The notes under the pieces are model-generated. The model ran no database searches and was not told the origin of the DNA. It saw nothing but the letters and a program-made list of their open reading frames with translations. 64,000 bases of DNA, from positions 1 through 64,000 of the IMG/VR virus record IMGVR_UViG_3300042484_002275; one strand, given 5' to 3'. Shown in pieces: positions 4,493 through 38,308 of this stretch (its first letter is position 1; each line of letters begins with the position of its first letter). The position numbers and the translations under genes were made by a program. The stretch comes from a virus.

Positions 4493-4981
4493 ATGGCAGT
4501 ATTAGATCCGAATGAAATAATGTTCAGAGCCTTCGAACCAATGGTTCAACACAGGTTCGTAATGTATATAGACAATATCCCAGCCTTCATGATTAAAAAC
4601 GTGAAAGCTCCTAACTTCACAGATTCAGAGATCAAACTTGATCACATTAACTCTTACAGAAAAATAAGAGGAAAAAGAAACTGGGAGAATATGGATATGA
4701 CTTTATACTCACCAATCACACCTTCAGGTGCTCAAGCAGTAATGGAATGGGCTCGTCTAGGATACGAATCAGTAACAGGTAGAGCTGGATATTCAGATTT
4801 CTATAAGAAAGATTTAACTCTTAATATTCTAGGACCTGTAGGAGATATCGTAGGGGAATGGATTATCAAAGGAGCTTTCTTAACAAAAGGAGATTTTGGA
4901 CAATTTGACTGGACTTCTGCTGACGGAGTAGTAGAGATAGGAATCTCAATAGCAATGGATTATTGTGTATTGAATTACTAA
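4493..4981 (+). CDS. tail tube protein (gp19-like)
   Basis: Inner tail tube monomer, 162 residues, matching gp19 length. It contains FEPMVQHRFVMYIDNIPAFMIK near the N-terminus and LYSPITPSGAQAVMEWARL in the middle, both typical of the T4-like tube family (PF06841-type). Located immediately after the sheath gene and followed by a terminator. It likely polymerises with the sheath around the tape measure. Confidence 0.92.
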   Translation: MAVLDPNEIMFRAFEPMVQHRFVMYIDNIPAFMIKNVKAPNFTDSEIKLDHINSYRKIRGKRNWENMDMTLYSPITPSGAQAVMEWARLGYESVTGRAGYSDFYKKDLTLNILGPVGDIVGEWIIKGAFLTKGDFGQFDWTSADGVVEIGISIAMDYCVLNY

Positions 4982-5090: not shown

Positions 5091-5840
5091 ATGGAAAACA
5101 AATTTAACCTACCAACCGAAACGGTAGACCTTCCTTCAAAAGGACTTCTTTATCCAAAAGATTCCCCACTAGCAGAAGGTAAAATTGAAATGAAATATAT
5201 GACCGCTAAGGAAGAAGATATTTTAACAAATTCAAATTACATTAGACAAGGAGTAGTTATTGATAAATTACTACAATCACTAATCATCTCACCAATCAAC
5301 TACTCAGACCTGCTTATAGGGGATAAGGATGCAGTTATGATGGCTGCACGTATTTTAGGGTACGGAAAAGATTATGACTTTCAATACGCAGGAGAAAAAG
5401 TAACAGTAGATTTATCTACATTACAGCTTAAAGAATTAGACGAAAGTATAATAAAAGAAAAAGGTAAGAATGAGTTTGAATATAAACTTCCAAATACAGA
5501 TAATAATATCACCTTCAGGCTATTAACACAAAAAGACGATAGAGATATTGATGCTGAATTAGAGGGATTAAAAAAACTAAACAAGAACGCTAATAACGAA
5601 TTGACAACACGTCTAAAGTATATGATATTGTCAATCAACGGAAACTACGAAAGAGGTACAGTGAGACAGTTTGTAGATACAGCCTTCTTAGCTAGAGACT
5701 CTAGAGCATTCAGAGAATACTATGCTCAGATATCCCCAGGAGTAGAAACAAAAATTAAATTTGAAACAGAGTTTGGTGAAGAGGAGGACATCAACATTCA
5801 ATTTAATTCTAACTTTTTTTGGCCTGAGTCCGGAAACTAG
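5091..5840 (+). CDS. gp26-like baseplate/tail-assembly protein
   Basis: 249 residues with LPSKGLLYP near residue 14 and YMTAKEEDIL near residue 36, signatures of the T4 baseplate gp26-type family (PF12322-like). It sits between tail tube and tape measure, where other phages encode the tail-assembly chaperone pair. It ends FNSNFFWPESGN. A run of seven T at 5814-5820 allows +1 or -2 slippage into the frame that continues GLSPETRGNIF, so this is probably the short product of a frameshifted pair. Confidence 0.8.
   Translation: MENKFNLPTETVDLPSKGLLYPKDSPLAEGKIEMKYMTAKEEDILTNSNYIRQGVVIDKLLQSLIISPINYSDLLIGDKDAVMMAARILGYGKDYDFQYAGEKVTVDLSTLQLKELDESIIKEKGKNEFEYKLPNTDNNITFRLLTQKDDRDIDAELEGLKKLNKNANNELTTRLKYMILSINGNYERGTVRQFVDTAFLARDSRAFREYYAQISPGVETKIKFETEFGEEEDINIQFNSNFFWPESGN
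5814..5820 (+). promoter_or_regulatory. putative +1/-2 frameshift site
   Basis: AAC TTT TTT TGG in the zero frame. Shifting +1 (or -2) over the seven-T run gives TTT GGC CTG AGT, entering the downstream frame with no stop. The downstream frame has no ATG before its conserved region. Confidence 0.65.
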
Positions 5841-6093
5841 AGGAAACATTTTTAGGCAAATACATGAAATAGTCTTTCATGGACAAGGAGGTTATGATTG
5901 GGAGGCAGTTTACAATATGCCAGTATGGTTAAGGAGATTTACCTTCAGCACACTGCAAGAACATTACGATAAGTTAAATGCAGAAAATGATGATGAACTT
6001 AAACCAGTTAAAAACGGCAATAAAGTAGCACCACCAGATATTGTTCAAAAAGCAATGACACCAACATACAGTACGAAGGCATCTAATAAATGA
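5821..6093 (+). CDS. frameshift extension domain (gp51-like / tail chaperone T part)
   Basis: From the T-run to the stop this frame encodes about 90 residues beginning GLSPETRGNIFRQIHEI, with YNMPVWLRRFTF, a motif I associate with gp51-like and small tail-chaperone proteins. The only upstream start in this frame is a TTG at 5761, and the residues between it and the T-run look like an out-of-frame shadow of the gp26-like gene. The first true Met is deep inside the domain (YNMPVW). It is therefore most likely expressed only as a fusion with the 5091 gene, as in lambda G/GT. The sequence directly precedes the tape measure. Confidence 0.65.
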   Translation, partial: GLSPETRGNIFRQIHEIVFHGQGGYDWEAVYNMPVWLRRFTFSTLQEHYDKLNAENDDELKPVKNGNKVAPPDIVQKAMTPTYSTKASNK

Positions 6094-6126: not shown

Positions 6127-8817
6127 ATGGCAAATCAAGGACCGCAAAAGACTTTTGACGACTATGCAAAGGCAATAGAAGCCTTAAACAAAAAAATTAT
6201 AAGTTTAGATGGAAATGGATTCCCAAATCTAACTAACGAGCTAAAGGGAATGCAAGGCGACACCGCTAGAGCTACGAAGCTATTTGAACTAATGTCTAGG
6301 GAGGCTCATGATTTAGAAGATGTCTTTGGAGCAATATCCACTACAATAAAAAACGTAGTAGCAGATTTAGATAAGTCAACAAAGGCAACTACTCTTTTTA
6401 AAAGAGGGTTAAATAGCGTAGAGGGGATAGCTAGGAAATTAGCAGATCATAAAAATGATGAGAACGTACTTACTGTAAAGCAGTTAGGTAATCTGAATAA
6501 GCAGTTAGGTTTAGAAATACAAAGCTTAGACAAAGCTCGAGAAAGAGCATCTGAAGAACAGAAAGCACTGCAGACAAAGATAAGGTACGGTAAAGCTTCC
6601 GCAGCAGAGATAAGATACTCTGAAGAACTATCCAACTACACCAAAGAAATAAACTCAGCTTTAAATCTAAAGAATAGTTACCTTGATAAAATTGTAAAGC
6701 ATTCTGAAAGAGAAATCCAAATTGAAAGAGATATTCAAAAGACAATTGGACTTACTGGAATGGCTTTTAAAGGAATTGCAGGAACACTTCAAAAAATAGG
6801 AGTAGAGTCTCAAGCTATAGAAGATCTTAATAAAAAAATTCGAGATACAGCAAAAGAAACTGGAAGTGCTTGGAAGACAGCAGGAACAGCAATTAAAGGG
6901 ACTTTTCAAATGGTAGGAGAAAGTTTAAGAGATCCTGCTGTTCAAATCGCCTTTGTAACAAAGTATTTTAAGACTCTATATGAAATAGGTTCACAGTTTA
7001 GTGCAAGAACTTTTGAAATACAAAAATCATTAGGACTTTCTACTTCTGCAGCAAAAGCTATGAACCAGGAGTTCTACAACATGCAGCAAAGTACAAATAA
7101 CATATATGCAAACTACAAAGACCTAGCAGCTGCAAATGCAAACCTAAATGAATCTTTAGGAACATCAGTAACTTTTTCTGCAGATATGCTTACAACACAG
7201 GCTAAGTTGATGGAGGTAACAGGATTAACCTCTGAAGAGTCTGCTAAAATTTACGAATACTCACTTCTTACTGGGCAATCTCAAGAACAGGTCTATAACT
7301 CAATGGGTAAGACAAATAAAGGAGTCCTTAGTAATAAGAAAGTAATGCAAGAAGTCCTAAAAACAAGTGGACAATTAGCAGCACAATATAAAAACAACCC
7401 AGAATTACTTGGAAAAGCAGTTGTACAGGTACAGAAGTTAGGAATTAGCCTACAGCAAGCTAAGAATATGTCTAGCGGGTTACTAAACTTTGAAGATTCA
7501 ATCTCTTCAGAATTAGAAGCAGAATTACTAACAGGACAAGAACTTAACTTAGAAAAGGCAAGAGCACTAGCTCTTCAAGGAAAGACAGCAGAAGCAGCAT
7601 CAGAAATGCTAAGACAAACAGGAGGTTTAGCTAAGTTCCAAAGCATGAATGTTCTCCAGCAGGATGCATTAGCTAAATCTATGGGAATGTCTACAGATGA
7701 ATTAGCAGATTCATTAGTAAAAGCAGAACAGTTAAATAAACTAGACGGTGTTCAAAAAAGAGCATTAGATGAAAGAGTAAGTGCACTGAAGAAAGCAGGA
7801 GAATTTGAAAAAGCATCTCAATTAGAAAAACTAGTACTACAGGATAAGACCGTTACACTAGCGGAACAAGAATTAGACACCCAGAGTAAAATTGACAAAT
7901 CAGTAAGCTCTATTAAAGAATCTTTAAAATCAGCAATTGCAGGACCTCTCGCTAGTGTAACAGATAAACTGGCAAGTGTATTAGCAGCAATGGCAGCCAA
8001 TCCTGTAATAAAAGCAATGCTAGGAGTAGCAGGAGGAGCAGCAGCTATTTTAGCAGGGGTTATGGCAGGAGCAATGGCTATAAGTGCTGCAAAGAGTATG
8101 TTATTTGGAAGTAGAGGTTCAAGCGTAGGTAGACCAATGTTTACCAAAGACGTAAGCGGTGGCGGTGGAGCTGCATCTACAATAGGGGATGTATCTGAAT
8201 CTTTAGGAGGAGGAAAAAGTGCAGGAATGGGAAAACAACTTAAAACTTTAGTTAAAAATCCAAAAGCAATGGGAAGAGCTCTAAGACGTTCCGGCGGAGG
8301 AAGCATGATGAAGGGATTAGGAAAAGGTTTACTAAAGGGTGGTCTAAAGAGTATTCCAATGTTAGGTGCACTAATAGGAGGAGGAATGGAAATAGCCGAA
8401 GGAGGCTTTAATGTAGAATCACTAAGTAGAGCAGCACTATCAGGAGGTGGAGCTTTCCTTGGCGGACTAGCAGGTTCAGCAGTAGCACCAGGAGTAGGTA
8501 CAGTCGCAGGCGGAATTGGAGGAAGCATGGCTGGAGACTGGTTAGGAGATAAAATCTTTGGAGAAAGAGGAGAGAAACCAGAAGAGATGCAAGACTTTAT
8601 ACTACGTCCAGGACAAAAACCTCTTAAATTTAGAAAAGACGATGTAATAATGGGTGGAACTAGTCTAACAGGAAACGCAACTGGCGGTACTGGAGGAGGA
8701 AATGTAGAAGCTTTATTAAGAGAGTTGATAGCAGCAGTTAAAGAAGGAGGTAATATAAGCATAGGGGCAAATAAACTAAATGAAGCTATAGGTATCAACC
8801 TACATCCAATGAGATAA
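6127..8817 (+). CDS. tail tape measure protein
   Basis: At 896 residues one of the two longest proteins of the tail module, largely alpha-helical, with long charged coiled-coil regions (about 130-260 and 560-650). A hydrophobic Gly/Ala-rich stretch (about 610-665) and Gly-rich segments near 720-810 are typical of tape measures that set tail length and contact the host membrane. The position after the chaperone pair and before the baseplate genes is the canonical one. No lytic domain is recognisable. Confidence 0.88.
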   Translation: MANQGPQKTFDDYAKAIEALNKKIISLDGNGFPNLTNELKGMQGDTARATKLFELMSREAHDLEDVFGAISTTIKNVVADLDKSTKATTLFKRGLNSVEGIARKLADHKNDENVLTVKQLGNLNKQLGLEIQSLDKARERASEEQKALQTKIRYGKASAAEIRYSEELSNYTKEINSALNLKNSYLDKIVKHSEREIQIERDIQKTIGLTGMAFKGIAGTLQKIGVESQAIEDLNKKIRDTAKETGSAWKTAGTAIKGTFQMVGESLRDPAVQIAFVTKYFKTLYEIGSQFSARTFEIQKSLGLSTSAAKAMNQEFYNMQQSTNNIYANYKDLAAANANLNESLGTSVTFSADMLTTQAKLMEVTGLTSEESAKIYEYSLLTGQSQEQVYNSMGKTNKGVLSNKKVMQEVLKTSGQLAAQYKNNPELLGKAVVQVQKLGISLQQAKNMSSGLLNFEDSISSELEAELLTGQELNLEKARALALQGKTAEAASEMLRQTGGLAKFQSMNVLQQDALAKSMGMSTDELADSLVKAEQLNKLDGVQKRALDERVSALKKAGEFEKASQLEKLVLQDKTVTLAEQELDTQSKIDKSVSSIKESLKSAIAGPLASVTDKLASVLAAMAANPVIKAMLGVAGGAAAILAGVMAGAMAISAAKSMLFGSRGSSVGRPMFTKDVSGGGGAASTIGDVSESLGGGKSAGMGKQLKTLVKNPKAMGRALRRSGGGSMMKGLGKGLLKGGLKSIPMLGALIGGGMEIAEGGFNVESLSRAALSGGGAFLGGLAGSAVAPGVGTVAGGIGGSMAGDWLGDKIFGERGEKPEEMQDFILRPGQKPLKFRKDDVIMGGTSLTGNATGGTGGGNVEALLRELIAAVKEGGNISIGANKLNEAIGINLHPMR

Positions 8818-34382: not shown

Positions 34383-34466
34383 GGAAGGCGGCCGAATGGA
34401 CGAGGAGCTTGTCTTGAAAACAAGTAGCGGGTAACACCGTTGTGGGTTCGATTCCCATGCCTTCCT
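34383..34466 (+). tRNA. tRNA-Ser(UGA)
   Basis: Acceptor GGAAGGC/GCCTTCC, anticodon loop CTTGAAA, T-loop TTCGATT, GG in the D-loop. The 3' CCA is not encoded, as for the other tRNAs here. Confidence 0.88.
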
Positions 34467-34472
34467 CAATAT

Positions 34473-34543
34473 TGCCCGTTCGTATAAAAGTAGTACACAT
34501 GTCTTTGACACATGCGGAGAAGGAGCGTTACCTTCATGGGCAA
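34473..34543 (+). tRNA. tRNA-Gln(UUG), non-canonical T-loop
   Basis: Acceptor TGCCCGT/ATGGGCA, anticodon stem CATGT/ACATG with loop CTTTGAC. The T-stem GAAGG/CCTTC is perfect but its loop is AGCGTTA instead of TTCGANT, and the D-loop TAAAAGTAG lacks GG. It is the only Gln tRNA in the window. Confidence 0.8.
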
Positions 34544-34554
34544 CAAATTAAATT

Positions 34555-34627
34555 TCTAGTAGCGAAGCTAGGTTACATGCCTCACTTGGACTGAGGAGTA
34601 CGCAGGTTCGAATCCTGCCTATTAGAC
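34555..34627 (+). tRNA. tRNA-Pro(UGG)
   Basis: Acceptor TCTAGTA/TATTAGA, anticodon stem CCTCA/TGAGG with loop CTTGGAC, T-loop TTCGAAT, GG in the D-loop. Confidence 0.88.
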
Positions 34628-34631
34628 AATC

Positions 34632-34702
34632 GCCCTCTAGGCTTTAAAGTGAAGCACCTAGCTTTTAACTAGGGTAAGAAGGAGCATTACCTTCAGGGGG
34701 TA
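34632..34702 (+). tRNA. tRNA-Lys(UUU), non-canonical T-loop
   Basis: Acceptor GCCCTCT/AGGGGGT, D-stem GCTT/AAGC with loop TAAAGTG (no GG), anticodon CCTAG/CTAGG with loop CTTTTAA, T-stem GAAGG/CCTTC with loop AGCATTA. Confidence 0.8.
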
Positions 34703-34719
34703 CACGGATGAGATTGTTA

Positions 34720-34757
34720 CTAATTCATAGAACTGCATGGTGTGAGCGTAGAATTAG
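34720..34757 (+). other. hairpin spacer in tRNA array
   Basis: CTAATTC (34720-34726) pairs with GAATTAG (34751-34757), enclosing 24 bases between tRNA-Lys and tRNA-Val. Confidence 0.4.
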
Positions 34758-34761
34758 ATTT

Positions 34762-34832
34762 GCCTCGTTGGCGTAATGGGAGCGTATTTCTTTTACATGG
34801 AAATGGCAGTGGTTCGATTCCACTACGAGGTA
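34762..34832 (+). tRNA. tRNA-Val(UAC)
   Basis: Acceptor GCCTCGT/ACGAGGT, anticodon stem TTTCT/GGAAA with loop TTTACAT, T-arm GTGG-TTCGATT-CCAC. Confidence 0.85.
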
Positions 34833-34833
34833 C

Positions 34834-35029
34834 TAAGTAAGTTAATATGCTGTGAAAGCTTCAATGAGCGCAAGTTGAAGTTAGGTGGGTTCGAGCCCCT
34901 CTACTGTAGTAATAGCCTAAGTCGGAGGCAGCCAAGTAGCAGATAACATATTATAGCCGATTTGGGTTGTGCACCTCGTCCGAGAAGCCCTAATAGTTCC
35001 TAATAGTTCGGTATGGAACAACTTACTTA
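34834..35029 (+). ncRNA. 196-base structured spacer RNA
   Basis: A perfect 10-bp terminal helix TAAGTAAGTT (34834-34843) / AACTTACTTA (35020-35029), with inner AATATG/CATATT and a CTTCAA/TTGAAG hairpin. No ORF and no complete cloverleaf, though one GGTTCGAGCC block is T-arm-like. May be a degenerate tRNA or an independent phage RNA. Confidence 0.45.
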
Positions 35030-35033
35030 AAAT

Positions 35034-35104
35034 GGGGACAACAGGCAAGGTGCCGAGCAGCTCTGTAAAAGCTCACTGGGTAGGTTCGATTCCTACTGGC
35101 CCCA
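35034..35104 (+). tRNA. tRNA-Tyr(GUA)
   Basis: Acceptor GGGGACA/TGGCCCC (one A-G mismatch), anticodon loop CTGTAAA, T-loop TTCGATT. The long variable arm usual for bacterial tRNA-Tyr is missing. Confidence 0.78.
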
Positions 35105-35106
35105 CA

Positions 35107-35143
35107 AAGTCATGGCATCAAATCCCGGTAGGGGTGCTGACTT
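35107..35143 (+). other. hairpin spacer
   Basis: AAGTCA/TGACTT outer helix with GCATC/GGTGC inner helix between tRNA-Tyr and tRNA-Phe. The rest of the gap to 35210 shows no clear structure. Confidence 0.4.
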
Positions 35144-35210
35144 AAAATAAACAACGATGGTGAAAATGGAGTCCTGCAGGCTAACCAGAAGTAACAACGA
35201 GGGGATAATT

Positions 35211-35283
35211 GGGGATTAAGCTAATCTAGTGAAAGCGCTAGCCTGAAGAGTTAGAGAGATCGGAGCGTAACCGATAGTCCCCA
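35211..35283 (+). tRNA. tRNA-Phe(GAA), non-canonical T-loop
   Basis: Acceptor GGGGATT/AGTCCCC, anticodon stem CTAGC/GTTAG with loop CTGAAGA, T-stem ATCGG/CCGAT with loop AGCGTAA. D-loop AATCTAGTGAA has no GG. Only Phe tRNA present. Confidence 0.8.
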
Positions 35284-35289
35284 CAATAT

Positions 35290-35364
35290 TGGTCTGAAGC
35301 TTAAGAGGTATACAGCGGAGGTTTGTTAAACCTAGGATAGCAGGTTCGAGTCCTGTCAGACCAG
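35290..35364 (+). tRNA. tRNA-Asn(GUU)
   Basis: Acceptor TGGTCTG/CAGACCA perfect, anticodon loop TTGTTAA, T-loop TTCGAGT, GG in the D-loop. Confidence 0.87.
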
Positions 35365-35366
35365 CA

Positions 35367-35426
35367 AAACTACTGAAATTGAATGACACGAGCTTCATAC
35401 GTTCGAAAGGAGTCATGCAGTAGTTT
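35367..35426 (+). ncRNA. 60-base hairpin RNA spacer
   Basis: AAACTACTG (35367-35375) pairs perfectly with CAGTAGTTT (35418-35426), with an inner ATGAC/GTCAT helix. It sits precisely between two tRNA genes. Confidence 0.45.
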
Positions 35427-35431
35427 AAAAT

Positions 35432-35585
35432 GTTCGTATAGATGTGCTGTGGATACGCAGGGAACACATCGAGTGGGTTAATGATGGTAGTAGGTACACA
35501 ACACTCCTTAATACTAGGATTGGAGCGAAGGGTTGATGCATACTGCAGGTAATTAACAAGACTGGTTCGATTCCAGTTACGGGCG
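35432..35585 (+). tRNA. interrupted or expanded tRNA, identity unclear
   Basis: The 3' end ACTGG-TTCGATT-CCAGT followed by TACGGGC is a perfect T-arm plus acceptor strand. The best 5' partner is GTTCGTA at 35432 (7 pairs, two G-T), giving 154 bases, about twice a tRNA. GATGTG/CACATC and GAGTG/CACTC helices lie between. It looks like a tRNA with about 80 inserted bases, or a remnant T-arm fused to a structured spacer. The anticodon cannot be read safely. Confidence 0.4.
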
Positions 35586-35590
35586 CAATT

Positions 35591-35662
35591 TCTCCTATAG
35601 TAGAATGGTTAGCACACATCTCTGATAAGGATGAAATGGAAGTTCAATTCTTCCTAGGAGTA
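35591..35662 (+). tRNA. tRNA-Ile(GAU)
   Basis: CTCCTA/TAGGAG acceptor (T1-T72 unpaired), anticodon stem CATCT/GGATG with loop CTGATAA, T-arm GGAAG-TTCAATT-CTTCC. Confidence 0.82.
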
Positions 35663-35664
35663 CA

Positions 35665-35770
35665 AAAGTTACCACGCTTGTTCCGTCAGTGGTTGTAAAG
35701 TCGAATCAATAAACGGAACCCCAAATGGAGGTCTTGCCTTAGTAGACTAAAGATTCTAAACGACAACTTT
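35665..35770 (+). ncRNA. 106-base structured spacer RNA
   Basis: AAAGTT/AACTTT terminal helix, GTTCCGT (35680-35686) with ACGGAAC (35713-35719), and a CTTAGT/ACTAAAG hairpin. Lies between tRNA-Ile and tRNA-Ser(GCU). Confidence 0.4.
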
Positions 35771-35774
35771 AAAT

Positions 35775-35857
35775 GGAAAGTAAATCAACTAGGAGTTGAG
35801 ACCGCTTGCTAAGCGTATCGTGCCTTCGGGCATGGGGTTCGATACCTCTACTTTCCT
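35775..35857 (+). tRNA. tRNA-Ser(GCU)
   Basis: Acceptor GGAAAGT/ACTTTCC, anticodon loop TTGCTAA, long variable arm TGCC-TTCG-GGCA as expected for Ser, T-loop TTCGATA. The anticodon stem is weak (three pairs). Confidence 0.8.
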
Positions 35858-35870
35858 CTTTAAAAACCTG

Positions 35871-35994
35871 GTCCCTGTCCTCATAAAGTGTTTAAGGAAC
35901 ACAGGAGTTGAATGTGCATTCGGGGCGGATAGTGGTGGGACACTGATAAATAAAATCTTAAGCACAAAGATAAGTTAACGGGTTCTTATCAACT
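35871..35994 (+). other. structured spacer region
   Basis: GTCCC (35871) / GGGAC (35937), a GTGTT/AACAC hairpin and a GATAAG/CTTATC hairpin lie between two tRNAs; no ORF or cloverleaf is convincing. Confidence 0.3.
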
Positions 35995-36063
35995 ACCGAC
36001 TTGATCTAGGATCGAAAATATCTCATAAGTATTTTCAGACAAGAGCGTAACTTGTAGTCGGTA
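35995..36063 (+). tRNA. tRNA with CAU anticodon (Met or Ile2), non-canonical T-loop
   Basis: Acceptor ACCGACT/AGTCGGT perfect, anticodon stem AATAT/GTATT (extendable to eight pairs) with loop CTCATAA, T-stem ACAAG/CTTGT with loop AGCGTAA. The D-arm is reduced to GATC-TAG-GATC, a three-base loop. One of three CAU tRNAs. Confidence 0.75.
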
Positions 36064-36067
36064 CAAA

Positions 36068-36144
36068 GCTAAAGTGGTGAAATTGGTAAACACTCCCATC
36101 GAGAGATGGTGCGGATTTTGTAGGTTCGAGTCCTACCTTTAGTG
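36068..36144 (+). tRNA. tRNA-Leu, probable GAG anticodon
   Basis: The Leu-like 5' half (GCTAAAGTGGTGAAATTGG) and T-arm GTAGG-TTCGAGT-CCTAC are clear. The anticodon arm CCCATCGAGAGATGG can form CCAT/ATGG around CGAGAG, a six-base loop, so GAG is the likely but not certain anticodon. Confidence 0.7.
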
Positions 36145-36149
36145 TATAT

Positions 36150-36221
36150 GGTGTTTCTAGCTTAATCGGTAAAGTGCTTCACTGTGAATGAAGAGAACAG
36201 GGTTCGAAACCCGGAAACACA
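36150..36221 (+). tRNA. tRNA-His(GUG)
   Basis: Acceptor GTGTTTC/GAAACAC with an extra 5' G at 36150 as tRNA-His needs, anticodon stem CTTCA/TGAAG with loop CTGTGAA, T-loop TTCGAAA. Confidence 0.87.
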
Positions 36222-36316
36222 CGACGACGCCCAAAGGACGATCGACCTGGCCAGAGACTAGTTCTTGCAAACTCAATGCCTAAAGTTGAGCGGCCAATCT
36301 ATGGGATTGGCTTTAC
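36222..36316 (+). other. structured spacer with two hairpins
   Basis: CTCAA/TTGAG hairpin near 36271-36290 and a perfect 7-bp GCCAATC (36293-36299) / GATTGGC (36305-36311) hairpin precede tRNA-Leu(UAA). Confidence 0.35.
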
Positions 36317-36389
36317 ATCCCTGTGGTGAAACGGTAAACACAACGAGTTTAAGCCTCGTAAGCTGCAGGTTCGACTCCTGTCAGGGATA
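36317..36389 (+). tRNA. tRNA-Leu(UAA)
   Basis: Acceptor ATCCCTG/CAGGGAT, anticodon stem ACGAG/CTCGT with loop TTTAAGC, T-loop TTCGACT. The variable loop is only about five bases, unusual for Leu. Confidence 0.85.
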
Positions 36390-36394
36390 CAAAT

Positions 36395-36467
36395 GGTCTT
36401 GTAGCATAAATGGAAATGCACTTGAATACGAATCAAGAGATTGTAGGCTCGAATCCTACCAGGACTT
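36395..36467 (+). tRNA. tRNA-Arg(ACG)
   Basis: Acceptor GGTCTTG/CAGGACT, anticodon stem CTTGA/TCAAG with loop ATACGAA, T-stem GTAGG/CCTAC with loop CTCGAAT (CTC in place of TTC). Confidence 0.83.
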
Positions 36468-36472
36468 CAATT

Positions 36473-36544
36473 GCCCTATTAGTTAAACGGATATAACGAA
36501 TCTCTTCTAAAGATTAATTCTAGGTTCGATTCCTGGATGGGGTA
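36473..36544 (+). tRNA. tRNA-Arg(UCU)
   Basis: Acceptor GCCCTAT/ATGGGGT, anticodon stem AATCT/AGATT with loop CTTCTAA, T-loop TTCGATT. Confidence 0.87.
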
Positions 36545-36551
36545 CAAAAAA

Positions 36552-36603
36552 ATCGTATTGGAAGAAAGTTTGATCAACTTTCGTAGGTTAAGCGATATCC
36601 TAC
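36552..36603 (+). other. hairpin spacer
   Basis: GAAAGTT (36564-36570) / AACTTTC (36576-36582) perfect hairpin, framed by ATCG/CGAT and followed by GTAGG/CCTAC; between tRNA-Arg and tRNA-Trp. Confidence 0.4.
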
Positions 36604-36607
36604 AAAT

Positions 36608-36678
36608 GCAGGTCACAGACAAGGTGTCGGTACGGTCTCCAAAACTGCTACGGGTAAGTTCGATTCTTACGGTCTGCG
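36608..36678 (+). tRNA. tRNA-Trp(CCA)
   Basis: Acceptor GCAGGTC/GGTCTGC, anticodon loop CTCCAAA, T-arm GTAAG-TTCGATT-CTTAC. Confidence 0.86.
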
Positions 36679-36710
36679 CAAAATAAATTGTTTCATTTAA
36701 AATTAAAATC

Positions 36711-37217
36711 ATGAGTAAGTACCAAAGAACACTGGTAATTGATTCAAGCTTTATGGCAAGATCTATTATCTCTACCGAAAGAGCTTTCGTGATTTCGTAT
36801 AAGGGTAATGCAGAAGTTATAGCTGAACATCCAGAAACATTCGGATTAGTAAATCCGGATTTAAAAATTAATAAACCTTCAATCATTAGGGTTTACAAAT
36901 ACGTAAAACAAGACATTCAAAAAGTTCCTCTAACAAGAGAGAACATTTATCGAAGAGATAATTACGAATGTGTTTATTGTGGATCAAGTTACTTGAAGTC
37001 ACTAACACTTGACCATGTCATCCCACAATCAAAAGGTGGAGCAAATGCTTGGGATAATTTAGTAACAGCATGTAGAACTTGCAATTCAGAAAAAGCAGAT
37101 TTAACTCTTGAGGAATATGGTAAAGACATAGTAGAACCAAAAAGACCTCATTATCTAATGCTTATGAAACAGTTAACATACATTCCAAAAGAATGGGAAA
37201 CATTTTTATTTTTCTAG
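36711..37217 (+). CDS. HNH endonuclease within the tRNA array
   Basis: 168 residues. The C-terminal half carries a typical HNH domain: NIYRRDNYECVYCGSS (first CxxC), LTLDHVIPQSKGGANAWDNL (HNH core) and ACRTCNSEK (second CxxC). The N-terminal 85 residues are unassigned. It is a stand-alone gene between two tRNA blocks, a usual position for homing-type endonucleases that mobilise tRNA regions; it may also be a Bacteroidetes-type HNH without homing activity. Confidence 0.85.
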   Translation: MSKYQRTLVIDSSFMARSIISTERAFVISYKGNAEVIAEHPETFGLVNPDLKINKPSIIRVYKYVKQDIQKVPLTRENIYRRDNYECVYCGSSYLKSLTLDHVIPQSKGGANAWDNLVTACRTCNSEKADLTLEEYGKDIVEPKRPHYLMLMKQLTYIPKEWETFLFF

Positions 37218-37226
37218 TAAAAAAAG

Positions 37227-37257
37227 TTGCTAGAAAGAAATAAAGTTCGTATCTTTA
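37227..37257 (+). promoter_or_regulatory. tRNA array promoter 2
   Basis: TTG 37227-37229, 20 bases, TATCTTTA 37250-37257, preceded by TTCG. Restarts transcription after the HNH gene. Confidence 0.68.
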
Positions 37258-37273
37258 AGTATAAGAAAGAAAC

Positions 37274-37335
37274 ATCACCTACTACGTAACGCACGATCGA
37301 CGACACGTACTGTCTGGCAGGTCAGGCTAGGTGAT
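37274..37335 (+). ncRNA. 62-base structured spacer RNA
   Basis: Perfect 8-bp terminal helix ATCACCTA (37274-37281) / TAGGTGAT (37328-37335), ending five bases before tRNA-Cys. Confidence 0.42.
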
Positions 37336-37339
37336 AAAT

Positions 37340-37409
37340 GGGCAGGGTGGTCTTGGAGGCCGGTGGCATTGCAACAGCTACAGACAGAGTTCGATTCTCT
37401 GCTTGCCCT
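37340..37409 (+). tRNA. tRNA-Cys(GCA)
   Basis: Acceptor GGGCAGG/CTTGCCC, anticodon loop TTGCAAC, T-arm CAGAG-TTCGATT-CTCTG. Confidence 0.82.
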
Positions 37410-37423
37410 CATTGAAGGTTCGA

Positions 37424-37468
37424 CCCTCTACCATCTTGTATTACACCTACAGATGGATATCGAGAGGG
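37424..37468 (+). other. nested hairpin spacer
   Basis: CCCTCT (37424-37429) / AGAGGG (37463-37468) outer and CCATCT (37431-37436) / AGATGG (37451-37456) inner helices. An ACCGC/GCGGT hairpin follows before tRNA-Leu(UAG). Confidence 0.45.
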
Positions 37469-37505
37469 AGCTACCGATTGATAAGTGACCGCACATGCGG
37501 TAAAT

Positions 37506-37578
37506 GCCCGAGTGGTGGAACGGTAGACACGCTAGTCTTAGGAACTAGATACTGAGGGTTCGAATCCCTCCTTGGGTA
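37506..37578 (+). tRNA. tRNA-Leu(UAG)
   Basis: Acceptor GCCCGAG/CTTGGGT, anticodon stem CTAGT/ACTAG with loop CTTAGGA, T-arm GAGGG-TTCGAAT-CCCTC; short variable loop. Confidence 0.86.
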
Positions 37579-37583
37579 CGATA

Positions 37584-37649
37584 GTAGGACCGGGTTACCG
37601 GATATGGGTTCCTTAATTGGACAGAAGGACTGGAGTCCTAGTCGCCTAC
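37584..37649 (+). other. cloverleaf-like spacer RNA
   Basis: GTAGG/CCTAC terminal helix enclosing CCGG-GTTA-CCGG and AGGAC-TGGA-GTCCT hairpins. Loops do not match any tRNA consensus. Confidence 0.35.
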
Positions 37650-37657
37650 AAAATAAA

Positions 37658-37726
37658 ATTAGAGTTCGCTTATAGTAAAGCAGCAGGGGCTAACCTGCAG
37701 AAGGGATTCCAACACCCACTCTAATT
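37658..37726 (+). ncRNA. tRNA-sized cloverleaf RNA, non-canonical
   Basis: Acceptor ATTAGAG/CTCTAAT inside a 10-bp helix, D-arm GCTT-ATAGTA-AAGC (no GG), anticodon arm GCAGG-GGCTAA-CCTGC with a six-base loop, T-arm with loop TTCCAAC flanked by A-A mismatches. Full cloverleaf geometry, but no U33 and a short anticodon loop, so it may be a degenerate or specialised tRNA. Confidence 0.45.
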
Positions 37727-37731
37727 TACTT

Positions 37732-37805
37732 GCTCTCGACGCACAAATGGTGGTGCACCGGATTTGTAACCCGGAATAGAGCCAGTTCGATCCTGGCCGA
37801 GAGCT
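37732..37805 (+). tRNA. tRNA-Thr(UGU)
   Basis: Acceptor GCTCTCG/CGAGAGC perfect, anticodon loop TTTGTAA, T-arm GCCAG-TTCGATC-CTGGC. Confidence 0.87.
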
Positions 37806-37813
37806 CAATAAAT

Positions 37814-37886
37814 GCGAATGTCGTATAACGGCTCATTACTCTTGACTTCCAATCAAGGAATGAGGGTTCGATTCCCTCCATTCGCT
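37814..37886 (+). tRNA. tRNA-Gly(UCC)
   Basis: Acceptor GCGAATG/CATTCGC perfect, anticodon stem CTTGA/TCAAG with loop CTTCCAA, T-loop TTCGATT. Confidence 0.9.
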
Positions 37887-37892
37887 CAAAAT

Positions 37893-37964
37893 GGCCCTAT
37901 CGTCTATCGGTTAGGACACATGGTTTTCATCCATGAAAGTCGGGTTCGACTCCCGGTGGGGCTA
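37893..37964 (+). tRNA. tRNA-Glu(UUC)
   Basis: Acceptor GGCCCTA/TGGGGCT, anticodon stem CATGG/CCATG with loop TTTTCAT, T-loop TTCGACT. Confidence 0.9.
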
Positions 37965-37969
37965 CAATT

Positions 37970-38041
37970 GGGGCTATAGTATAACGGCTATTACAATGGT
38001 TTTGCAAATCATAAATTGGAGTTCGATTCTCCATAGCTCCA
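37970..38041 (+). tRNA. tRNA-Ala(UGC)
   Basis: Acceptor GGGGCTA/TAGCTCC, anticodon loop TTTGCAA, T-arm TGGAG-TTCGATT-CTCCA. Confidence 0.9.
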
Positions 38042-38046
38042 CAAAA

Positions 38047-38118
38047 GGTCTATTCGTTCAACGGCTAGGACACTACCCTGTCACGGTAGGGATGAGAGTT
38101 CGATTCTCTCATAGACCG
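38047..38118 (+). tRNA. tRNA-Asp(GUC)
   Basis: Acceptor GGTCTAT/ATAGACC perfect, anticodon stem CTACC/GGTAG with loop CTGTCAC, T-loop TTCGATT. Confidence 0.92.
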
Positions 38119-38124
38119 CTATAT

Positions 38125-38198
38125 CGCGAGTTGGTAGAAGATGGTATCTCGCTAGGCTCATAACCTAGAGGTCGGGGGTTCGAATCCCTCACTCGCTA
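38125..38198 (+). tRNA. initiator tRNA-fMet(CAU)
   Basis: C1 faces T72 (unpaired, the initiator hallmark), then GCGAGT/ACTCGC. Anticodon stem CTAGG/CCTAG with loop CTCATAA, followed by AGGTC as in bacterial initiators; T-loop TTCGAAT. The anticodon stem has two rather than three G-C pairs next to the loop. Confidence 0.82.
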
Positions 38199-38203
38199 CT
38201 AAT

Positions 38204-38278
38204 GTCCTTTTAGCTCAGCCCGGTTAGAGCAGCTCGCTCATAACGAGAAGGTCACAGGTTCGAATCCTGTATAGGACA
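38204..38278 (+). tRNA. tRNA-Met(CAU) elongator or tRNA-Ile2
   Basis: Acceptor GTCCTTT/ATAGGAC (one T-T mismatch), canonical D-arm with GG, anticodon loop CTCATAA, T-loop TTCGAAT. If lysidine is added it would read AUA as Ile. Confidence 0.85.
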
Positions 38279-38308
38279 CAAAAATTTTATCCAATAAAAA
38301 TAAAAGTT

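Follow-up and report, generated by a model that had tools for sequence, protein, structure and literature searches.

We identified a gp26-like gene whose product is very probably extended by a 90-residue domain through a programmed frameshift into the +1 frame, taking +1 and -2 shifts together. A true +1 ribosomal step at YUU-UGG probably makes this long chaperone. The sequence-only reading had proposed a +1/-2 programmed frameshift in the chaperone position; the conserved frame, the site and the upstream synonymous sites support this proposal and, of the two directions, +1 is favoured. If true, the finding shows how a large and mostly uncultivated T4-like phage group makes both tail-building chaperone forms, and does so by the less common direction of slippage. 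The window, the whole 64-kb stretch of DNA that was analysed, comes from a virus record of 150,740 bases, and the features of the locus within it are given in Table 1.

Table 1. Features of the predicted frameshifted chaperone locus, in window coordinates
Feature	Position	Strand	Remarks
Tail tube gene (context)	4493..4981	+	phrog_4542 E 3.1e-16
gp26-like ORF, short form of tail assembly chaperone (TAC-N)	5091..5840	+	249 aa; PHROG, Pfam and fold matches
Upstream mRNA element, GAGGAGGA... to the C before TTT	5781..5813	+	Synonymous-site bias in relatives
Slip site TTT-TTT-T	5814..5820	+	Relatives also TTT-CTT-T, TTC-TTT-T
Proposed P-site codon UUU (5817-5819) and A-site codon UGG (5820-5822)	5817..5822	+	Putative assignment
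Downstream domain, long form only, T-like, helical	5821..6093	+	90 residues; conservation; dN/dS 0.15
TGA closing the -1 frame at once	5825..5827	+	-1 stop falls on the third codon in 182/199
0-frame stop TAG of the short form	5838..5840	+	In relatives 3-7 codons from the TGG position in 198/199, 11 in one
Presumed tape measure gene (context)	6127..8817	+	Position; immuto 3-5A counterpart annotated tail tape measure protein

Gene order and the two parts of the predicted chaperone

The sequence-only reading was right in its coordinates for the seven-T run (5814-5820) and for the gp26-like stop TAG (5838-5840), which starts 18 bases later, the 0-frame end of ORF 5091-5840 being ...AAC TTT TTT TGG CCT GAG TCC GGA AAC TAG. 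Read-through in the +1 frame gives, as it had also stated, NFFGLSPETRGNIF... and stays open until a stop at 6093, for a joined product of 333 aa. Its statement that the downstream part has no ATG of its own needs a refinement: no ATG lies ahead of the conserved domain, and a TTG is present upstream at 5761; locus L001, whose protein is 100 % identical to that of the window, has TTG, TTG and GTG at the matching +1-frame places. The placement between a tail tube gene (phrog_4542, upstream) and a tape measure gene holds, the latter by position only in the window, where the PHROG and Pfam family matches of ORF 6127-8817 itself reached no better than E 0.02. The large ORF that comes next in Flavobacterium phage immuto 3-5A carries a tape measure annotation.

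The gp26-like protein of the window matches phrog_150 (E 3.2e-11) and, just below the cutoff of 24.5 bits, PF12322 (E 9.8e-5, 22.6 bits), which is matched by 40 of the 53 members of alignment A9 at E ≤ 0.1 (best 1.5e-28). By sequence the protein is assigned to the T4 gp26 family (PF12322). Its AF2 model (pLDDT 95.1) has as its closest PDB folds YqbN (3klu; Z 5.7, 88 aligned, rmsd 4.7), which we take to be a tail chaperone, and HK97 TAC (2ob9; Z 4.7, 81 aligned, rmsd 5.1), both over residues 1-96 only and with Z under 8, a level that may reflect a common arrangement. In a second structural look at 636 PDB chains four reached Z 2, those shown being YqbN, HK97 TAC and the actin capping protein 4akr (2.0). 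Foldseek with the same model returned nothing from the PDB at E ≤ 0.001 (2ob9 E 1.9), and the sole result of a PDB sequence search with the gp26-like profile was a de novo design (E 0.089). BFVD gave 53 matching phage models at E ≤ 0.001, of which many bear the names baseplate hub, baseplate protein or baseplate hub assembly protein. The weak resemblance of the model to known tail assembly chaperones suggests a chaperone-like fold, and the assignment of the gene as a tail chaperone is supported by PF12322 and phrog_150 together with the HK97 TAC and YqbN fold matches.

The downstream domain has the consensus GLTPEYR..FxQIHEI.FHGxGGY..VYNMPIWLR and a helical model (pLDDT 77.9, pTM 0.49), for which BFVD held no match at E ≤ 0.001; the window's own copy matched no PHROG or Pfam family. 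It had been called gp51-like, and of this label only a weak match of the joined profile stands. The joined profile (104 of 150 sequences used) aligned colinearly with the gp51 profile over 206-295/161-246 at an hhalign E of 0.0078 and Prob 5, while the separate profiles were not significant (E 0.21 and 0.19). The window itself has no match to phrog_634, which is matched by two of 47 downstream-domain members (best 0.011) beside other weak matches of like strength. Nine of the 47 weakly match phrog_32580 'tail assembly chaperone' (best 0.014), unrelated families giving single matches as strong. The domain is a weak candidate for homology to the end of T4 gp51. BLAST-type searches, which a strongly diverged copy as in T4 would escape, detected neither part a second time in the 150,740-base virus record or in four Flavobacterium phage immuto records.

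Frame relation among relatives

A first scan with the joined protein against viral contigs kept the best 80 of 597 related stretches, and four further scans added 182 loci (20, 2, 80 and 80), partly from the same contigs again; the totals are lower bounds. The resulting set holds at least 269 loci with a gp26-like part, including seven annotated phage records, with some contigs counted twice. The downstream part lies in the +1 frame at all 80 of the closest loci (the best 80 of 597). Among the matches listed, the 269 loci divide into 255 with the downstream part in +1, three with it in -1, four ending inside gp26 and seven without a profile match, so that the downstream domain is in the +1 frame at 255 of the 258 loci where it is detectable. 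Two of the seven (L227 and L232) are truncated at the contig end and the other five are distant phages, in which, read by eye, the +1 frame is open in LIS04, L111 and GXN1 and the -1 frame in RAS14 and LR756511. For counts at the site we used 199 representatives of the 255 +1-frame loci, obtained by greedy clustering at 90 % DNA identity.

Among named phages, Flavobacterium phage immuto 3-5A, with a TTTCTTT site and the one of the four immuto records that was read there, and Microcystis phage Mel-JY01 have the same frame relation, and Rhodothermus phage RM378, with 26.7 % identity to the L106 protein, has an open +1 frame at its TTT-TTT-TGG-AAT. Purifying selection acts on the downstream frame, with a median dN/dS of 0.15 over 964 non-independent pairs and 45 codons with no gaps allowed; the value of 0.56 for the upstream part is unreliable, gaps being disallowed. 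Homopolymers are error-prone, and an assembly or sequencing error or a decayed gene might be suspected. The same frame relation across contigs of many metagenomes and in immuto 3-5A, Mel-JY01 and RM378 argues against error, and the purifying selection on the downstream part against error or decay, which leaves this explanation a practically negligible probability. The long form escapes gene annotation: the immuto 3-5A record lists a 36-residue hypothetical protein (MW353176.1, L083:4854-4964) over part of the downstream domain and marks no frameshift.

A separate gene for the downstream domain, with its own TTG, GTG or CTG start or expressed by coupled re-initiation, is realised in two relatives. 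At loci L102 and L106 the domain starts at its own ATG just after the gp26 stop, with no usable overlap; such relatives, named in the sequence-only reading as grounds for refuting a frameshift, make up two of the 258 loci, against 255 in the +1 frame, and their slip sites have changed as well. L102 has TTC-TTG-TAT-CCT, with an A-ending codon ahead of it and GAA-GAA upstream, and L106 has TTC-CTT-TGG-CCA, with GAG-GAG and GGG still present upstream. The upstream TTG of the window and the SD-like tract found upstream in many relatives would also fit a separate start. From the opening of the frame to 10 codons past the slip, however, ATG is absent at 177 of the 255 loci, and ATG, GTG and TTG are all absent at 94 of them and in 73 of the 199 representatives, just where a start would be needed. 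The +1-frame Leu codon immediately after the slip, where a CTG might serve, is CTA in 44 of the 199, and a start site leaves both the YTT-T conservation and that of the preceding codons unaccounted for. We therefore consider a separate start very unlikely as the general arrangement.

The third natural exception, L251, has the domain in the -1 frame, with the sequence A-AAT-TTC-TTC, a T preceding the site and changed upstream codons. It could be a switch of slip direction or a single-base error, and a possible A_AAT_TTC heptamer is present. These exceptions amount to three loci only. In the jumbo phages RAS14, XacN1 and PA5oct the -1 frame is open after a T run at the same FF.

Predicted slip site and upstream mRNA element

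The three codons of the site are highly constrained among the 199 representatives. At codon 1, 191 have TTT and eight have TTC, the TTC being paired with TTT at codon 2 in every case (8/8). Codon 2 is TTT in 165, CTT in 32 and CTA in two, and so YTT in 197, and is never TTC, compared with about 20 % TTC among the Phe codons of the gene. TGG follows YTT in 191 of these 197 (163 TTT-TGG and 28 CTT-TGG), and YTT is followed by T or C, allowing +1 re-pairing of the codon-2 tRNA, in 197 of 199. The first base of codon 2 has changed about 10 times on the protein tree (Fitch count), so the slip motif has been kept through repeated changes.

Conservation of the T run itself, which the sequence-only reading had named as a check, proved partial, T7 being present in 156 of the 199 representatives and the run being interrupted in 42. 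The T7 majority would suit transcriptional slippage giving mixed mRNAs. The interrupted sites, TTTCTTT (32), TTTCTAT (2) and TTCTTTT (8), have T runs of at most three or four and yet the same frame relation, which excludes a homopolymer artefact and makes transcriptional slippage extremely unlikely.

Slip options were scored with tRNA re-pairing rules. Of the 199 representatives, 197 suit a +1 slip at codon 2 and 191 a +1 slip at codon 1; a -2 slip is allowed at the 157 TTT-TTT sites. Codon-1 slippage (UUU-Y) as the general mechanism was rejected, as it fails on the eight TTC-TTT representatives; it is possible for the two CTA loci, L043 and L085, where CTA-T re-pairs poorly, a point against +1 at codon 2, and where a codon-1 slip (TTT->TTC) works. 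A -2 frameshift on the T run would reach the same frame with one more Phe (NFFFGLSPETR), and arteriviruses provide an example of such shifts. Others are described in passages of PMC5009743, for phage Mu decoding, and of PMC10885494, for GUU_UUU sites. At the eight TTC-TTT-T sites, however, the tRNA must pair with UCU after a -2 shift, and at the 34 TTT-CTN sites a Leu tRNA must pair with UUC, unlike the +1 slip at codon 2 that suits nearly all sites; we regard -2 as unlikely and favour +1 at codon 2. The window holds 18 tRNA genes clustered at 34383-38279, including three Leu tRNAs (gag, taa, tag), and no Phe or Trp tRNA gene was found within it.

The proposed A-site codon, UGG, is present in 192 of the 199 representatives, but L106 and L251, neither of which uses +1, retain W as well, and L106, with no frameshift, still encodes FLWPD. 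Since both still encode W-P in frame 0, conservation of TGG-CCT is partly due to protein coding. A stop at precisely the third codon closes the -1 frame in 182 of 199 representatives, compared with 12 % at control positions; it may protect against -1 products or may simply reflect dual coding, with W-P-D/E/K/N/R/S over G-L-T/S.

The 11 codons before the slip show a synonymous bias to G and C relative to the gene's own codon usage, with a sharp onset. At third positions the G-excess z is 9.7, 16.7 and 11.1 at -33, -30 and -27 and 18.6 at -9, and the C-excess z is 18.7 at -3. In the gene body (all columns except the last 22) the largest absolute z per column has a median of 2.3 and a 95th percentile of 5.2, the G-excess maximum is 5.5, and one invariant Arg column is an outlier at 12.3. 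Since these z-values assume independent relatives, their meaning lies in the contrast within the gene. GAG:GAA stands at 86:13 at -30 and 69:36 at -33 over a background of 550:2036, and a T directly before TTT, which would create a -1 heptamer, is seen in six of 199 representatives with about 101 expected. As the synonymous-codon signal in these 11 codons is far above that in the rest of the gene, the mRNA itself seems to be under selection upstream of the slip.

The window carries an SD-like GAGGAGG tract at 5781-5788, about 30 nt before the slip, kept through synonymous choice; in relatives the tract lies mostly at -33..-21. A duplex of -7 kcal/mol or better with the E. coli 16S 3′ end was found at -36..-18 in 138 of 199 representatives, and at the same threshold in 0, 2, 3 and 15 in four control bands, in 61 in a fifth, and in nine of 199 at -18..-3. 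Against the +1 reading stand an A site without a stop codon, a purine tract some 27-33 nt from the site, and the anti-SD that Bacteroidota ribosomes are said to hide. Column counts revealed no conserved internal start codon after the tract. A downstream partner for the tract was considered and rejected, the synonymous signal fading about five codons into the +1 frame, and these first codons overlap the 0-frame tail.

A stimulatory hairpin or pseudoknot was likewise rejected, none being found by fold z (66-67 representatives) or by a pair scan. The region downstream of the site gave a mean fold z of -0.78, with nine of 67 sampled representatives below -2, and control places gave -0.86 (15/66 below -2) and -0.31 (4/67); the pair scan around the site revealed no convincing helix. 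RNAalifold is uninformative here, as neither the real nor the shuffled sets gave any structure.

Proposed mechanism and known systems

In the mechanism we propose, the majority of ribosomes would terminate the short, gp26-like chaperone at TAG 5838, while a minority would slip forward by one base with YUU (in the window UUU, 5817-5819) in the P site and UGG waiting in the A site. The P-site tRNA would re-pair with the UUU one base downstream and translation would continue in the +1 frame, appending the extra domain to give the long chaperone. On the model of lambda gpG/gpGT, the tape measure may be coated by many copies of the short form and few of the long one, the extra domain recruiting tail tube subunits. 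With slightly more doubt than confidence, we suggest that the locus represents a distinct class of +1 element, having a YUU-UGG sense-codon site, no A-site stop, no detectable structure, an upstream driver of about 33 nt (an SD-like purine tract at a distance of about 30 nt, wobble bases biased to G/C and avoidance of T before the slip) and a -1 frame closed at once, conserved across a large T4-like clade, with other lineages slipping -1 or using a separate start at the same spot. As nature provides the same gene in +1, -1 and separate-start forms, what sets the direction of slippage becomes directly testable, and Flavobacterium phage immuto, already cultured, has a TTT-CTT-T site that tells the slip models apart.

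By its title, the study of T4-like phage tail chaperones by Vladimirov et al. 2022 (doi 10.1016/j.virol.2021.11.003) concerns a mechanism that is not frameshifting. The literature searched contained no account of a +1 frameshift in a chaperone of the gp26/gp51 type, nor of this site, its upstream element and its breadth, although that study may already describe such a case. Frameshifted tail chaperones, +1 included, are known, and the YUU-UGG site and the upstream element look new. According to passages of PMC5009743, the two chaperone forms of tailed phages arise by -1, -2 or +1 shifts, a scheme widely conserved 'except T4'. The PRFect training set, as given in part of PMC10885494, holds 350 forward compared with 2368 backward slip-site cases, and the same source, citing Vladimirov et al. 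2022, notes that in some T4-like phages the short and the long form each have a gene of their own instead.

As in lambda gpG/gpGT, described in part of PMC5009743, the gene lies before the tape measure gene, has a short and a C-terminally extended form and carries its site near the end of the short frame. Lambda, however, shifts by -1, whereas the shift predicted here is +1 at YUU-UGG and the N domain is of the T4 gp26 family. Membership of the gp26 family is shared with T4 gp26/gp51, gp51 being in our own reading the long one of the two T4 chaperone genes. In T4 genes 26 and 51 are separate and on opposite strands, whereas here there is one gene plus a predicted frameshift.

The site resembles that of prfB (CUU UGA) in that a P-site YUU would re-pair with UUU, the next base being U, and in its upstream purine tract. 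In prfB the SD-like tract lies about 3 nt before CUU. The site differs from prfB in having the sense codon UGG in place of the UGA stop and a tract about 27-33 nt away; the A site holds no stop, and a close duplex (-18..-3) occurs in only nine of the 199 representatives. The gp26-family chaperones of RAS14, XacN1 and PA5oct share the T run at the same FF position, but there the downstream frame is -1 (T_TTT_TTT or T_TTT_TTC) and here it is +1.

A further comparison is with the Vandenendeviridae and Andersonviridae, for which passages of PMC12846349 report a -1 GTTTTT frameshift in the myovirus tail chaperone and credit Vladimirov et al. 2022 with poly-T -1 signals in T4-like phages. The poly-T slip in a myovirus tail chaperone is common to both, the downstream frame there usually being annotated as a separate gene; unlike those -1 systems, as the same passages present them, the shift predicted here is +1.
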